Of a DNA stretch of 45,374 bases, positions 30,416 through 41,500 are shown in pieces (position 1 is the first letter of the stretch; each line of letters starts with the position of its first letter). A program made the translations under genes and the position numbers. The DNA is from Candidatus Woesearchaeota archaeon (GTDB lineage: Archaea; Nanobdellota; Nanobdellia; Woesearchaeales; GW2011-AR9). The stretch covers positions 522,908-568,281 of the forward strand of contig CAMAVK010000001.1 in the NCBI GenBank assembly GCA_945861715.1. Direction: 5' to 3'. The notes under the pieces were generated by a model, which worked only from the letters and a program-made list of their open reading frames with translations, did not search any database and was not told where the DNA came from.

Positions 30416-31114
30416 CTAAATTCCCAAATTTTTCATACCTAACACCCGCAATTCTTTGTTCTCCACAATTCGCGCAAGTGATATGACAGGTGAATCCTCT
30501 TTTAATAATCGAATCATCGCTACTGCAAGATCCGTTGATTTAATAACTTTATTTGGAAAAACCCATTCCAATGCAGGAAAAAATGGACTCATTAATTTAT
30601 TCATCAACGCAGTATTCGGATTTCGAATTACAGGTCGAATAGCCGCAGGTCGAACAATAATCAAACTATGCAAACCCAACTCTGCTAACTTTTTCTCAGT
30701 CCTTCCTTTAATGCGAGCAAACGGCAATTTACTTTTTTCCTCTTGATCCGCACCACTACCACTTACGAAAAGAAATGTCATCATCGGATTCACCTTCTTC
30801 ATCGTAGTAGCACAAGCAATCGCATAATCATATGTTATCCGAATATATTCCTCCTTTGAAACTTGTGAGGTGGAAACACCAAGACACCACACTACTGCAT
30901 CACATTCCAAAAATATATCCATCACTGCTTCATAATGCTCATAATCAGAATGAATCACACTAACTATTTTAGGATGTGAAAAAGCGAGCGGCCTACGTGT
31001 AAGTACAGTTATTTTAGAAATAGCAGGATCCAATATTGCTTCCTGAACAAGAGCTGCTCCAACAAGACCAGTAGCACCAGTTACAATAATAGAAATACCC
31101 TTATCAGCGGTCAT
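30416..31114 (-). CDS. NAD(P)-binding Rossmann-fold protein (atypical SDR)
   Basis: A 232-aa protein beginning with the nucleotide-binding motif ISIIVTGATGLVGAALVQEA. It continues with the VLTRRP and CDAVVWCLGVSTSQ segments of NAD(P)-binding atypical SDRs, then FLFVSGSGAD and IIVRPAAIRPV. The lineage resembles HTATIP2/YbjT-type proteins. Substrate unknown. Start ATG 31114 is chosen over 31135 because it overlaps the upstream gene less (11 bp), giving tight translational coupling. Confidence 0.78.
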   Translation of the reverse strand: MTADKGISIIVTGATGLVGAALVQEAILDPAISKITVLTRRPLAFSHPKIVSVIHSDYEHYEAVMDIFLECDAVVWCLGVSTSQVSKEEYIRITYDYAIACATTMKKVNPMMTFLFVSGSGADQEEKSKLPFARIKGRTEKKLAELGLHSLIIVRPAAIRPVIRNPNTALMNKLMSPFFPALEWVFPNKVIKSTDLAVAMIRLLKEDSPVISLARIVENKELRVLGMKNLGI

Positions 31115-31361
31115 CGTGTTCAACCCGCTTCTCAAGTGAATCTCTTTTTAATTCACGCTCCTCAACTATTTCAACACGAACGGTGCGACCAAAATATGCA
31201 ATCCCAAACCCGCCAATAGCTCCACCAATACCTAATGCGATACTCTCCGGATTGCGATGTGTAAGCCCATATACTACTCCTCCAACACCTGCAAGTGCAC
31301 AACCAAGTCCAAGTTTACTCACACCATATGATTCTTTTAATTGTGTAGTGTAACTTTTCAT
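31104..31361 (-). CDS. Small two-helix membrane protein
   Basis: An 85-aa protein with two hydrophobic, Gly-rich segments (LGLGCALAGVGGVVYGL and IALGIGGAIGGFGIAYFG). A Glu/Arg-rich C-terminus follows. The Gly zipper pattern suggests close helix packing. Start ATG 31361 has GGAGAG just upstream; the earlier TTG would include that site. It overlaps the following Rossmann gene. Confidence 0.6.
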   Translation of the reverse strand: MKSYTTQLKESYGVSKLGLGCALAGVGGVVYGLTHRNPESIALGIGGAIGGFGIAYFGRTVRVEIVEERELKRDSLEKRVEHDDR

Positions 31362-32121: not shown

Positions 32122-32191
32122 AATGTTTGTATCCTTTTATTGTTATGTTCCTAATTGTTATATCCTTTTCCTATTTATATACCTAATCCTA

Positions 32192-33697
32192 TCAAGACAT
32201 ACTTAACGTAAGCTTGTTCAAAAATTTGTCAGGAAGAATAATAGTCATATTGGAGTATAAATGCTTATCCTCAGGAATTAAATTTTGAGCATCTTCTGGG
32301 GTAACTTGACGTTGTTGTCGACTAAGTTCTCCTGGAAATCTCCCCTGCCAATAATCCCATAACCTACCATGCATCACAACTTGTTTAATCTCTGGAACTT
32401 TAAGAACACCCCGGGCAAACATTTCTCCATCATTATACATCAACATCCTCGCGTCTTCTTGCGTAGTACATCGCGTATTTATGACATACTCATCTTGCCC
32501 AACTCGTTGATAAAAATCAAGAGCAAACATCAATTTAGATTTTTCACTTTGACCAAAAGTTCGACCATAGTAATTTCGCACATCCTTAAGAAAGAAAACA
32601 GTTTCCCCCGAAGTCTTAAATTGAGCGCGCCAGCACTCCCTCATTTTCACATATTTTGTTGAGTCATTCAATCTATGTATTTCCACAATTCTAGAATCAT
32701 TTTTTCCTAGATCCAACAGCGAATCAAACCGAGTTCCCGATGCGTAATGGGCATAATCCTGCCTGCATCTTCCGTTAGGAATTCTTTCCGGAGCAAACAT
32801 CCCATCAACAAATCGCCGAGCAACACCTTGGATGCGTGTAACTAAGTCTTCGTTTTCTTGTCGTAATAGTTGTTCCTCCTTCGTTTCCCCAACCAAAGTA
32901 AGTTCCTTTGAAACAACTTCACCACCAGTGACTCTCTCTCCCCTCGCAACAATTGCGCGCGTCATCGGTTCAGAATCAACTGCAAGTGGTAGTGGAACAC
33001 TCACTCCACCCTTTCGTGCATTGGATAGTGCATCATATACACTGGATGGAATATTCGGGAAAAATTCAGCGAGATCCGACTCTGTTAATGTGGCAACACG
33101 AATGCCTTTCGGTGTAGTTGCATTCTGATACAATATTCCATTAAACACAAAATACGCAACCGAGGGGACGATTGAAAATGTATCTTTTATTGATCTATCA
33201 CGCCATAACACCTTCGAATCATCATGTTTGGCTATGAAATCCTTAATGTCCTTCCTAGAGCTAACGACATTAATTAAATATTCAACCCTATGCCCCAGGA
33301 CATTAGTTGGTGGAAGCACACGTTCATACGCAGTCGCAAGAAGCAAACTCTCTAAATGTTTTCCTTCTGCAGGAACTTTCTTGAGTCTAGCCCACATCCC
33401 ACGAAGATCACGCTGCACATGTAACCATGCAATATTACTTCCGTCAATTATATCATCCCTAACATCTGCTCTCACATCCCAACCAAGTGTTCCCATCAAA
33501 AAACCATTAATTAAAGAAACCTCAACATCAGCAAAATCCCCAGGCACCAAATTATGAATTTGCACTTGATTGTCTCTGCGAGGAAATAATGCGTCCGCAT
33601 ACATCTTTAGGACTACTTTACCTCGTTCAACCGATAACGAATGTGGCAATCCTATTTGCTCAAGTTCAGCTAGACTCAGAAGTTCAACTGGAACCAT
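32192..33697 (-). CDS. Partner of the kinase: two copies of an unnamed domain
   Basis: A 501-aa soluble protein starting 6 nt after the kinase stop, with a run of G (GGGGGG) as ribosome-binding site. Residues about 20-235 resemble the C-terminal part of the kinase: GKVVLKMYADALFPRRD versus TKMVLEAYCDVLFPQKD, WDVRADVRDD versus WRLRADIKAD, and EYLINVV versus DYLIDIW. A Glu/Arg helix (265-292) separates it from a second, weaker copy (about 285-440: WRAQFK, FLKDVRNYYGRTF, DEYVINTRC, MFARGVLKVPEI). No known family is recognised. Coupling suggests a substrate or co-factor of the kinase. Confidence 0.65.
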   Translation of the reverse strand: MVPVELLSLAELEQIGLPHSLSVERGKVVLKMYADALFPRRDNQVQIHNLVPGDFADVEVSLINGFLMGTLGWDVRADVRDDIIDGSNIAWLHVQRDLRGMWARLKKVPAEGKHLESLLLATAYERVLPPTNVLGHRVEYLINVVSSRKDIKDFIAKHDDSKVLWRDRSIKDTFSIVPSVAYFVFNGILYQNATTPKGIRVATLTESDLAEFFPNIPSSVYDALSNARKGGVSVPLPLAVDSEPMTRAIVARGERVTGGEVVSKELTLVGETKEEQLLRQENEDLVTRIQGVARRFVDGMFAPERIPNGRCRQDYAHYASGTRFDSLLDLGKNDSRIVEIHRLNDSTKYVKMRECWRAQFKTSGETVFFLKDVRNYYGRTFGQSEKSKLMFALDFYQRVGQDEYVINTRCTTQEDARMLMYNDGEMFARGVLKVPEIKQVVMHGRLWDYWQGRFPGELSRQQRQVTPEDAQNLIPEDKHLYSNMTIILPDKFLNKLTLSMS

Positions 33698-33703
33698 CCC
33701 CCC

Positions 33704-35650
33704 TCAAACCGTTGAACTATCTCCACCTGTAATCCGACTTTCAAGAGGAGCATTCGTTGGTACCATCTCAGTTGGAGCAGCAGCGCTCGAAACTACATTT
33801 GGCACTGTAGTTTGCCTCTCTAATTGTTCAGTAATCGTCCTTGGTAGTTGAGGATAAAAACCATTTAAGTCACGAGGATCCAATCCATTTTTTTCAGCAG
33901 TCTCCTTCAATCCAAGATTTTTGTACAACTTACTATCATGAAAAATAAATCGAAGCGCATTTGGAGCCAGAGAATGATTATCCGCTAACCCCCTCTCAAG
34001 TTGGTTCAAAGAAAGGATTCGAGCAGTATCCACTATTTTTTTGTAAACTCTTCTCCCCTCTTTATAGTTATCAGATCCCCTATTCACGCAAAAAGACAAA
34101 TCGCCTCCATCCTGTTGCCAAATATCAATAAGATAATCAAATACTCCCCTCCCCTGAATATTTTGCCATCGCTCATACACACGAACAGTCATAATATTGA
34201 TTGTATCCGGATCATATGACCCTAATCGCTGTACACCACGCCTAATCAAACCACGATTATCTCGTACAATCTCCATATAAGATTGTTCACGTCCAATAAA
34301 ATTGTCTGCTTTAATATCCGCCCGAAGTCTCCAGGTTTCAACTTTATTCTCATTCCTAAAAACTGGTTTATAATCATGGTTAAGTGTTTTTATTACAGTC
34401 GGCATTTTAACCTCAATTGGAACAAAATCACCATTTCTAAGGTTGTAAATAGGCGTATCCTTCTGAGGAAACAACACATCACAATACGCCTCAAGTACCA
34501 TCTTAGTTCGCAAAAACACACCTTCTAACTCTGATGGTAGAGGATAACGATAAACCGGTTTCGATAACTTAACAACTCCTTCCAATCCATCCTCCACCGC
34601 AACAATTTCAATAGGTGCGGTATCTCCTTTGCGTGTAATAATTGAACCTGAAAAATCAGAATTAAATACTGGTATGATGTTTCGAATCCCACCATGTATC
34701 TCTAAATCCATGGATGCTGGTATCGGTGCAGCAAGCTGTCTTCGCGATCCTGAATCCTGCGCAAGTTCAGCCCGTATATGTGCTCCCGTGTCATTTCCTG
34801 AAGTGCCCCTGCGAGCAACAAGTTCAGAAGAATCATCAACCAACTCCCCCACAATTACTTCCCTGCGAGAAAAGAAATCCTTAACTTCACCAAGCGTTGC
34901 ACGTGCAAGATAATCCTTTGCCATCATACGTTCTAGAATTGGCTCAAATACAGCTGGAACATTTCCTTTAATTTTAGGAGTATAATTAAGGCGATCCATC
35001 ATTTTCATAATATCTTTTCCACCAGAAAGTACATGCATCAATGTCGCTCCTAGTGCATAGATATCCGATTCGGGATATGCATCTCCTCCACAAAGTGACT
35101 CAAATGCTGAATACCCAAACGTTCCTGCCGTAGTAAAATTAATCGATTTAGCAATCGCAGCGTTAACTGATCCAAAATCAATCAAATGTGCCAACCCATC
35201 GGGAGAAATAATAATATTTTCCGGTTTGACATCACGATGAATAATGGGTTGAGGAAATGAATGGATATGTTCCAATACCGAGGCCAAATTCAGAGCAGCC
35301 CGTGTAACCTCTTCAAGTGATAATTGTTTATTCCTAACCGTAGTTGCAAGAGTTTCTCCCGGAACAAAATCACTCACGAAAAAGAATTTATGATTTGATG
35401 TCGTTTTATCAATATGGGATTCAACAAATCGAGGAACCAGTGGATGAGTTATAGATCGAAGCGCACGACATTCGCGTTCAAACATCTCAACTCCCTGTTT
35501 ATAACTATCATACCCTTGCTTAAACCCTAAACGGAGCTCCTTAAGTGTAAAATCTATCCCCTCGCGAGAAACTCGATAGGTATACCCATTACCTCCTTCA
35601 CCTAGCTGCGCCTCAACAGTATATCCAAGGAAAGTATCGCCAACGTTCAT
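33704..35650 (-). CDS. Hanks-type Ser/Thr protein kinase with unnamed C-terminal domain
   Basis: A 648-aa soluble protein. Residues about 8-265 are a complete kinase: Gly loop GEGGNG, K37 in TLKEL, HRDVKPENI (H138, D140, N145), DFG at 158-160, and an APE-like SAFESL. It resembles bacterial PknB-type kinases more than the RIO or Bud32 kinases common in archaea. No membrane segment. A polar linker (266-310) leads to a C-terminal region (about 315-610) homologous to the repeats of the next gene. A TATA box (TTTTAAAAATA, 35671-35681) is about 26 bp upstream of the ATG. Confidence 0.88.
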   Translation of the reverse strand: MNVGDTFLGYTVEAQLGEGGNGYTYRVSREGIDFTLKELRLGFKQGYDSYKQGVEMFERECRALRSITHPLVPRFVESHIDKTTSNHKFFFVSDFVPGETLATTVRNKQLSLEEVTRAALNLASVLEHIHSFPQPIIHRDVKPENIIISPDGLAHLIDFGSVNAAIAKSINFTTAGTFGYSAFESLCGGDAYPESDIYALGATLMHVLSGGKDIMKMMDRLNYTPKIKGNVPAVFEPILERMMAKDYLARATLGEVKDFFSRREVIVGELVDDSSELVARRGTSGNDTGAHIRAELAQDSGSRRQLAAPIPASMDLEIHGGIRNIIPVFNSDFSGSIITRKGDTAPIEIVAVEDGLEGVVKLSKPVYRYPLPSELEGVFLRTKMVLEAYCDVLFPQKDTPIYNLRNGDFVPIEVKMPTVIKTLNHDYKPVFRNENKVETWRLRADIKADNFIGREQSYMEIVRDNRGLIRRGVQRLGSYDPDTINIMTVRVYERWQNIQGRGVFDYLIDIWQQDGGDLSFCVNRGSDNYKEGRRVYKKIVDTARILSLNQLERGLADNHSLAPNALRFIFHDSKLYKNLGLKETAEKNGLDPRDLNGFYPQLPRTITEQLERQTTVPNVVSSAAAPTEMVPTNAPLESRITGGDSSTV

Positions 35651-35715
35651 ACGAGATAGAAAACAAGCCTTATTTTTAAAACTTAGTGAGATTTACGAGT
35701 TAATAGTAGTTACAC

Positions 35716-38511: not shown

Positions 38512-40446
38512 TTACTTATTCTTCGCGACATACACACCCATCCAATCCGCTGGAGGATGCACAAGATATTCCTCGCATCTCACCATCATCAACTTCGAAG
38601 CTTTATCATGTTTCATCGCATAACTTTCAGTAAACTTGGCTTTTGCATCCGCAAATTCACCCTGACGATACAACGTGAGCCCCCGAGAATAAATTGAAAT
38701 AAACTCTGTGGTATCATATTCCACATCTTCGAGCATCCCCACCACTTCAAAGAGTGCAACCGGTTCCGTTTTTCCTTTCACAGCAACCAAATCTAATTCT
38801 CGACAAACAAATGAATTATCCAAATGTCGTTTTGTGTGGGCTGTAATAAGTAACAACACACCATATTCTTTGGTTAACCCTTCTACTCGTGACGCAAGGT
38901 TCACCGCATCTCCAATAACCGTATAATCAAATCGACTATGCGACCCAATGTTTCCAACGATCACTTGTCCTGTATTAATGCCCATTCCAATATCAATATC
39001 AATACCCCTAACAGCAAAGCGAGCTTTAATTTTCTTCATTTCTTTCTTCATAGCAAGAGCACTCAGAACCGCATCGCGCGCATGTTTCTCATTAACATTG
39101 GGCGCGCCCCAAAATGCCATGATTGCGTCCCCAATATACTTATCCACAATTCCGTTGTGCGTAATGACAATAGTGGACATCGCATCAAAATACTCATTGA
39201 GTGTTGCAACCAGCTCAGACGGAGACAATTTTTCAGATAATGTCGTAAATCCACGAATATCCGAAAAGAATATCGTCAACTCTTTTTCAACCCCACCCAA
39301 CTCAACTGACTCCTTATTTTTCAATAAATGAGATACCACAACTGGCGACAAATATTTACCAAATGCACTCTCTACTTTTTTACGTTCTCGAGTCTCAATC
39401 GCGTACGACCCAGCATAAAACAACGGATATGCCAACATGATTGCAAGTGGAGGATACACTAAATTCAAAATGATATTCTGATCAAAAAAGAAAATTGCAC
39501 AAAACTCGTACAATACAATTACACCAGTTAAAATTCCAAATGTCCAAACTGGTCGTAAAAAGAATACACAAACACCAGCCCCAACAACAAAAAGGAACAG
39601 CAAGATAAAGAGTGATGCATCGCTTTGGTGATGAAGGTGATTAGAATTCAAAAGTGTTTGAATAATTGCAGCATGTACTTCTACTCCTGGCATTGCCACT
39701 CCCGATGAGGTCGGAACAAAATAATGATCTTTGAGTGATTGACTTGTTGCCCCAACAAGGACAATTTTATTTTTAAAGACAGAAGAATCAACCTTTCCTG
39801 CTACAACATCTGCTATACTTACCATCTGATACATATATGGAACCGACGGGAAATTGATATAGAGCATTGCCTCTTTTTCTCGGCGTATTCCTAAGGCTGA
39901 TTCAAGTATAGTATATGCAAAGTGATCATATTGTGTTGATACCGTCAAATCAGCTGTTCGTGTCACTCCATCTGGATGCGTCAAAATATTTACGTATCCT
40001 GTACGAGCACCCGCATCCAAAAATTCTGTTTTAGGTAATAAGTAAGAGTCCGCTTTCCCATCTGCGTCAAACCCATTAACTTGAGACGCAAGAACTACTT
40101 TATTCCCCGCAAGCGAAGAAGTAAATGCCGCATCGCCAGTCGCATTTTCATAAAATCCAATATCATACCCAATTGTAAGTGATCCCTGTAACTTAGAATT
40201 TAAGGATGCAAACACGCTCCTATCCCACGGCCACCGGCCGATTTTGTCAATACTCTTATCATCAATTGCAACAATCACAATAGAGTTGATTGGGGTCTTT
40301 CCTCCATACAACGAATCACTCATTAAGAAATTGAGGTTCTGCATAAACCCCAGGGAGTAAAGAATAATCAAAAGAAAAAATGCACCAATCCCAATACCAA
40401 TAAACAATGGTATCTTAGATGGTGCTTTGGGTTTAAGATGCATCAT
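38512..40446 (-). CDS. CHASE2-domain class III adenylate cyclase
   Basis: A 644-aa membrane receptor that should make cyclic AMP. One N-terminal helix (13-33) precedes an external CHASE2 sensor domain (about 40-270; VAIDDKSIDKIGRWPWDR, KIVLVGATSQSLKDHYFVP). Three membrane helices follow (about 278-350), then the cyclase (about 385-570). Metal ligands D396 (FSDIRGF) and D440 (GDAIMAFWG), the ATP-selecting K436 and the transition-state pair N516/R520 (AVNLASR) are all present, so it is predicted active on ATP. The architecture is common in bacteria, unusual in archaea. It is 32 bp downstream of a FecR-domain gene. Confidence 0.92.
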   Translation of the reverse strand: MMHLKPKAPSKIPLFIGIGIGAFFLLIILYSLGFMQNLNFLMSDSLYGGKTPINSIVIVAIDDKSIDKIGRWPWDRSVFASLNSKLQGSLTIGYDIGFYENATGDAAFTSSLAGNKVVLASQVNGFDADGKADSYLLPKTEFLDAGARTGYVNILTHPDGVTRTADLTVSTQYDHFAYTILESALGIRREKEAMLYINFPSVPYMYQMVSIADVVAGKVDSSVFKNKIVLVGATSQSLKDHYFVPTSSGVAMPGVEVHAAIIQTLLNSNHLHHQSDASLFILLFLFVVGAGVCVFFLRPVWTFGILTGVIVLYEFCAIFFFDQNIILNLVYPPLAIMLAYPLFYAGSYAIETRERKKVESAFGKYLSPVVVSHLLKNKESVELGGVEKELTIFFSDIRGFTTLSEKLSPSELVATLNEYFDAMSTIVITHNGIVDKYIGDAIMAFWGAPNVNEKHARDAVLSALAMKKEMKKIKARFAVRGIDIDIGMGINTGQVIVGNIGSHSRFDYTVIGDAVNLASRVEGLTKEYGVLLLITAHTKRHLDNSFVCRELDLVAVKGKTEPVALFEVVGMLEDVEYDTTEFISIYSRGLTLYRQGEFADAKAKFTESYAMKHDKASKLMMVRCEEYLVHPPADWMGVYVAKNK

Positions 40447-40478: not shown

Positions 40479-41342
40479 CTAGTATTGAGCTTTCAAACGT
40501 GCGATATGACTTTTTTGCTCTTGGATTTTAAGGGTTAACTCAAACGCATTATCCATCCATTCAGTCCGAGCGGGAATACTCGATTTCACTTGTTCTAAAT
40601 CAACCAAATTATCATCAGCAGCGCTTAATAGCTCATCCATAGTATACTCTTGTCCCTGGGCTTTTTGTCCAAGAAGTAGTTTATCTACCACTAATTTATG
40701 ATCTGCAAGTATTTTTGCACGCATTCGCTTAAGTTGAATCATCTGAATTTCAAGGCGGCTAATCATATACTCTCGATCGTTTTTATTCATGCTATTTTTC
40801 GTTGCACCACGTGCAGTAATATCCGCCTTTTCATCCCCATGCACCGACAATTTTTGTCCCGCTGCATCCAGTTCAACTGTACCTTCAGCTACAATAATAC
40901 GTGAGTCAGATATTCCAAATTCAGTACCTCGAACGGCAGCCACACTTGTAGGAGTACTGATTGTATATCCAGTAACCCCATTAAGTTTTGTAAACTTATT
41001 CCAAGTCGATCCTTGCTGTTGACTAATTTGAATATTTTCCTTTGTTAGATCGCCAACAGATACCTGCGTATTTGGCTCGAGGGTAATAAATAAACTTTCA
41101 TACAAAATTAAAGATGCACTACCATCAGCACCTGTTCGAATAACATCCTTCTCCCCTACTGTTGTCTGAGCTGTCACTGCAACAAATCCAGACCCGGAGT
41201 TCACTTCCACACTTCCACCCTGGGGAAGTAGAACTGCTTGTGCCGTATTTGTGATGAATACTAAACTATAAATTGCAACACCTGCAATAATAAGAACTGC
41301 AAGAAGTGCAAGTCCGATATAAAGTGCCTTTCGTTTTGCCAT
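40479..41342 (-). CDS. Membrane-anchored FecR-domain protein
   Basis: A 287-aa protein with an N-terminal membrane anchor (about 5-27, YIGLALLAVLIIAGVAIYSLV). An external FecR domain comes next (about 40-160; QGGSVEVNSGSGFVAVT, VGEKDVIRTGADGSASLIL, TPTSVAAVRGTEFGI) and then a helical, Lys/Leu-rich C-terminal part (about 175-285). Stand-alone FecR proteins often sit beside CHASE2 adenylate cyclases in bacteria, and this pair is preserved here, 32 bp apart. The start at 41342 has GAGGTT upstream; the earlier ATG at 41354 is possible. Confidence 0.85.
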   Translation of the reverse strand: MAKRKALYIGLALLAVLIIAGVAIYSLVFITNTAQAVLLPQGGSVEVNSGSGFVAVTAQTTVGEKDVIRTGADGSASLILYESLFITLEPNTQVSVGDLTKENIQISQQQGSTWNKFTKLNGVTGYTISTPTSVAAVRGTEFGISDSRIIVAEGTVELDAAGQKLSVHGDEKADITARGATKNSMNKNDREYMISRLEIQMIQLKRMRAKILADHKLVVDKLLLGQKAQGQEYTMDELLSAADDNLVDLEQVKSSIPARTEWMDNAFELTLKIQEQKSHIARLKAQY

Positions 41343-41500
41343 AATGAACCTCAAACTTCATCCATAATTCTCTCTAATCAAGAGACACCATAATATAGAT
41401 GAAGAATACTTTAATAGATAACATAGTATATAAACATTACGAGCAAGAAGACAGAATAACCAGCTTAGGGCATGCCTACTCTTTTCAGACAAATCGGTAT

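Follow-up and report, generated by a model that had tools for sequence, protein, structure and literature searches.

A Hanks-type Ser/Thr kinase gene, K (33704-35650, reverse strand, 648 aa), and the gene of its partner protein, P (32192-33697, reverse strand, 501 aa), lie 6 bases apart, with P downstream, in the 45,374-nucleotide stretch of woesearchaeotal DNA analyzed here (the window), and the two proteins share a module outside the kinase domain. The adjacency of the genes, the paralogy of the module and the intactness of both reading frames are direct observations. Our preferred reading, held tentatively and at somewhat less than even confidence, is that K and P form a lineage-private kinase-companion pair with a duplicated module, through which the two proteins meet. 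A kinase with an encoded companion is a known kind of arrangement, and the new part would be the module itself, which by its sequence appears to be unnamed and lineage-private, the latter term applying only within the set of sequences searched.

The shared stretch comprises ~240 to 280 residues at 25 to 30% identity. By blastp, residues ~345 to 624 of K (copy 1; 33779..34618, reverse strand) align with residues ~1 to 232 of P (copy 2; 33002..33697, reverse strand) at an E value of 9e-15 and 25% identity over 273 columns, ~60 columns of the module alignment being identical. The similarity was also found with phmmer (E value of ~2e-11 in a set of 396 open reading frames) and recovered by whole-genome searches (E values of 6e-8 to 2e-7), and local alignments with three matrices gave z scores of 17.7, 14.5 and 12.7, with none of 1,000 shuffles scoring as high. 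The first-pass annotation had proposed that the C-terminal region of the kinase recurs clearly once in a partner without a kinase, and these values, together with the lack of any kinase match for P in Pfam, NCBIfam and PADLOC, bear this out; the motifs it quoted (K-x-V-L-x-x-Y-x-D-x-L-F-P-x-x-D, W-x-x-R-A-D, Y-E-R and Y-L-I) all fall in invariant columns. As far as sequence and gene order go, the unit of a kinase and a companion with a shared domain is real. The onset of the module is aligned in the two proteins (MVPVELLSLAE in P, APIEIVAVED in K), and since the similarity begins at the first residues of P, a complete module opens this protein, as would be expected for a copy of the module made without the kinase.

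Three copies had originally been counted, of which two are certain and the third, in the strongly diverged residues 265 to 501 of P (32195..32905, reverse strand), is only suggestive. Standard alignments and profiles gave nothing for this candidate: with BLOSUM62 local alignment, 428 of 1,000 shuffles did as well against K and 178 of 1,000 against the N-terminal half of P, a two-sequence HMM scored it at -1.0 bits (249 shuffles were equally good), hhalign gave a probability of 0.3%, and at the standard gap cost of 11/1 there was no signal, 644 of 1,000 shuffles being as good. Profile alignment at low gap cost yielded z scores of ~3.6 to 4.5 in four of five gap settings, with 0 to 5 of 1,000 shuffles and 0 to 3 of 231 real-protein segments as good; as several settings were tried, the best of these values overstates the significance. 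The alignment is colinear and runs through F-V-D-G-M-F, W-x-x-R-A or similar, K-D-x-R, Y-Q-R-V and E-Y-V-I-N. Because the low-gap-cost scores beat nearly all controls and the order of the motifs is kept, we call the third copy suggestive, and on this alignment we lean toward its being real.

The kinase domain of K (residues 8 to 262; 34865..35629, reverse strand) matches PF00069 with an E value of 1.2e-27 and 97.4 bits, compared to a curated cutoff of 31.7. It has the G-loop GEGGNGYTY (residues 17 to 25), K37 within DFTLKE and the alphaC Glu in MFERECRAL (56 to 64), followed by HRDVKPEN (138 to 145), a DFG in residues 156 to 162 with D158 as its Asp, SDIYALG (195 to 201) and an Arg in MAKDYLARAT (243 to 252). 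The catalytic set (G-loop, VAIK Lys, alphaC Glu, HRD Asp and DFG Asp) is complete and in the expected order, in agreement with an earlier statement that no active-site residue is missing; the APE motif has degenerated to SAFES, in which the Glu is kept. Judging from these motifs, K looks like an active kinase. A Ser/Thr- and charge-rich linker of low similarity (residues 263 to 344; 34619..34864, reverse strand), which matches no Pfam family and nothing in P, separates the domain from the module. An apparent similarity of this linker to the module was traced to 10 residues contained in both of the segments compared. PADLOC models PD-T4-6 and Mad6 match the kinase domain of K (E values of 1e-35 and 8e-35), but only as a general kinase domain, while the tail of K and the whole of P match nothing in that collection. 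A role as an anti-phage defense kinase (MADS MAD6, PD-T4-6) found no support, as the NCBIfam MAD6 model scores 105 bits against a cutoff of 460 and the neighbors of the pair are a helicase, an adenylate kinase and a tRNA methyltransferase.

The order to which this archaeon belongs consists of very many families of small genomes (0.6 to 2.1 Mb), and at the threshold used, kinase matches were found in 108 of 115 genomes, a count that may include atypical kinases of the RIO and Bud32 types. These kinases have variable non-kinase tails, some with membrane segments. The closest kinase that we saw, of ~600 aa (genome G002, locus L035), has a domain 40% identical to that of K over 206 residues and the same HRDxKPxN and DFGSV motifs, but its tail is apparently membrane spanning and unrelated to the module. 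Since the kinases of relatives combine a similar domain with unrelated tails, K can be described as an ordinary kinase domain of the group joined to a private tail. No neighbor with a clear shared non-kinase domain was found at the kinase loci of the order that were inspected; at six other kinase loci, kinase and neighbor shared only pieces of the kinase lobes, apart from one pair unrelated to kinases. Apparent shared domains at loci L043 and L060 are, as we read them, pieces of neighboring kinase domains. Clusters of two or three adjoining Hanks-type kinase genes do occur in relatives, at L060 (G034:C41:1-14000), L057 (G051:C41) and L061 (G027:C117).

The stop codon of K and the start codon of P are separated by GGGGGG (TGA-GGGGGG-ATG; 33698..33703, reverse strand), possibly a coupling or ribosome-binding stretch, and this purine run, which lies unusually near the ATG for a ribosome-binding site, may serve reinitiation at P. 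A TATA-like box, TTTTAAAAATA (35671..35681, reverse strand), found 31 to 21 bases 5' of the K ATG, would fit a leaderless K-P transcript. Another, TATATAAATA (32172..32181, reverse strand), lies between P and the gene of the tRNA methyltransferase and points to a separate promoter for this downstream gene. Both boxes were identified from sequence only, and together they suggest that K and P are a two-gene operon. Elsewhere in the window are genes for an AMP phosphorylase-like protein, a GCD14-type tRNA methyltransferase and a Hel308/Ski2-like helicase. We take the archaeon for a DPANN member, probably of the Woesearchaeales. A short open reading frame of ~85 aa with hydrophobic stretches (31104-31361, reverse strand; MKSYTTQLKESYGVSKLGLGC...) overlaps the assumed start of the gene at 30416-31135, the true start of which may sit further inside (MTADKGISIIVTG).

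Relatives of the module outside its own genome were absent from all sets searched with single sequences and two-sequence profiles, namely 60, 145, 371 (phylum), 352 (order) and 378 (class) genomes, the contigs of 84,980 species, and viral contigs (IMG/VR), phages and plasmids, so that in the searched set its only carriers are the K and P genes; the pattern-based scans among these searches have little sensitivity for distant relatives, and a second genome of the same genus did not surface. Weak matches at L007, L009, L012, L013 and L011 were discarded as chance after the sequences were read, the proteins resembling an IleRS, an ATP synthase A subunit, a Hel308-like helicase, a short fragment and a TnpB-like protein. 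That no relative was found in these sets speaks against the kinase-companion reading, since functional pairs are normally recognized by conserved co-occurrence. The helicase and tRNA methyltransferase genes that flank K-P are far apart or on separate contigs in relatives, which left no empty site to define there, and as these flanks are not neighbors in relatives, gene order offers no functional hint.

The shared ancestry of two neighbors alone does not imply that they bind each other, and a tandem duplication gives the same picture. P might be a by-product that has nothing special to do with the kinase, or the module might be a diverged member of a known family beyond the reach of sequence profiles. 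The lack of conservation in any relative searched fits such an origin, and orphan genes are common in genomes of this kind. Yet both frames are intact, at 648 and 501 codons, and have host-like codon usage at only 25 to 30% identity between the copies, which is hard to square with neutrality, and we consider this explanation quite improbable. The codon usage and GC content of K and P resemble those of the other window genes, indicating resident genes rather than a very recent insertion, and composition shows no sign of a horizontal origin.

The module has no family above the cutoff in Pfam, NCBIfam, PHROGs or PADLOC, so its description as an unnamed domain stands, and no relative was found among PDB sequences (the best hits, with E values of 0.19, 0.85 and 1.1, are all unrelated). 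P as a whole likewise drew no match in the four family collections, and it has no obvious membrane segment. DUF3601 and Imm53 fell far below their cutoffs and were set aside. AlphaFold predictions from two-row alignments gave pLDDT values of 29.7 for P and 30.8 for the tail of K, with pTM values of 0.18 and 0.24, too low for the models to be used for any statement on the fold or for their secondary structure to be relied on. It is conceivable, if unlikely, that the module is a new fold or interaction domain from one archaeal lineage that would join the kinase and the kinase-less duplicate of its tail into a self-built signaling complex.

The module could also be an input or target-binding domain for a small molecule, a nucleic acid or a protein, which K and P would bind independently; P would then be a kinase-free receptor or decoy making no direct contact with K. 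The variable tails that the kinases of the order each carry, membrane segments included, would agree with such a function, and K contains an L-x-x-G-D-F/V-x-x-x-V stretch with a weak match to Rho_RNA_bind that is compatible with a beta-barrel binding element. This match was rejected as an assignment, since it is not significant (E values of 0.02 to 0.14; 14.9 bits against a cutoff of 27), covers just 40 residues and is absent from P. Independent binding of the same ligand is a possibility to which we give some weight, while judging it rather less than probable.

Downstream of the module, both proteins have the motif R-(I/V)-T-G-G-(D/E). In K it is RITGGD (residues 639 to 644), within a C-terminal tail (residues 625 to 648; 33707..33778, reverse strand) that ends in RITGGDSSTV, and in P it is RVTGGE (residues 255 to 260), within the linker between copy 2 and the candidate third copy (residues 233 to 264; 32906..33001, reverse strand). 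The motif, whose Thr is T641 in K and T257 in P, is a candidate phosphorylation or docking site, and the only specific one. P might be essentially a dedicated substrate of K, with the module as docking platform and residues of the RVTGGE linker as phosphoacceptors; the two genes adjoin, and the motif is kept in both proteins although the linker around it has diverged. This comparison involves only two sequences, though, and so short a match may be inherited without a function, so that we regard a dedicated substrate as unlikely.

Three matches to FHA and a weak one to PP2C in the same genome point to a background of phospho-signaling. A second Hanks-type kinase of 386 aa is encoded ~9 to 11 kb before the window (L050 6748-7908, reverse strand), near the gene of an FHA-domain protein (L050 8638-9039, forward strand). 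A few kilobases from K, the window contains a CHASE2-adenylate/guanylate cyclase (38512-40446, reverse strand; PF05226, E value of 2e-44, and PF00211, E value of 1e-28) followed by a FecR-domain protein (40479-41354, reverse strand), which is second-messenger signaling of a bacterial kind in an archaeal genome.

Returning to the kinase-companion reading, we infer that the C-terminal module of K was duplicated to give the kinase-less P, perhaps with a further duplication of the module within P, and that the two proteins are probably co-translated from their adjoining genes. Most likely they would meet via the module, either by pairing with each other or through a common ligand or target, and P would serve K as an adaptor, as a regulator or as its first substrate. 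The first-pass annotation had suggested a phospho-signaling unit in which the domain would mediate pairing or substrate presentation, an interpretation that is partly supported, by the shared unnamed domain and the active-site residues. A known parallel is PknG and its OdhI-type FHA substrate (PMC8546545), in which the tail of a kinase is used to recruit a substrate. The tail of PknG consists of a TPR scaffold and its substrate has an FHA domain, whereas K and P carry one and the same unnamed module. Eukaryotic-like kinases of Sulfolobus islandicus (PMC5682000) are described as acting on each other by cross-phosphorylation, from which the present pair differs in that P has no kinase domain.

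Essentially no literature on kinase signaling in this archaeal order was found in our search. If the preferred reading is wrong, K-P would be an orphan locus with a tandem duplication. If it is right, the module would be a new domain family, the pair would offer an entry into the kinase signaling of an archaeal order in which kinases are widespread, and a signaling kinase could make its own partner by copying its tail.
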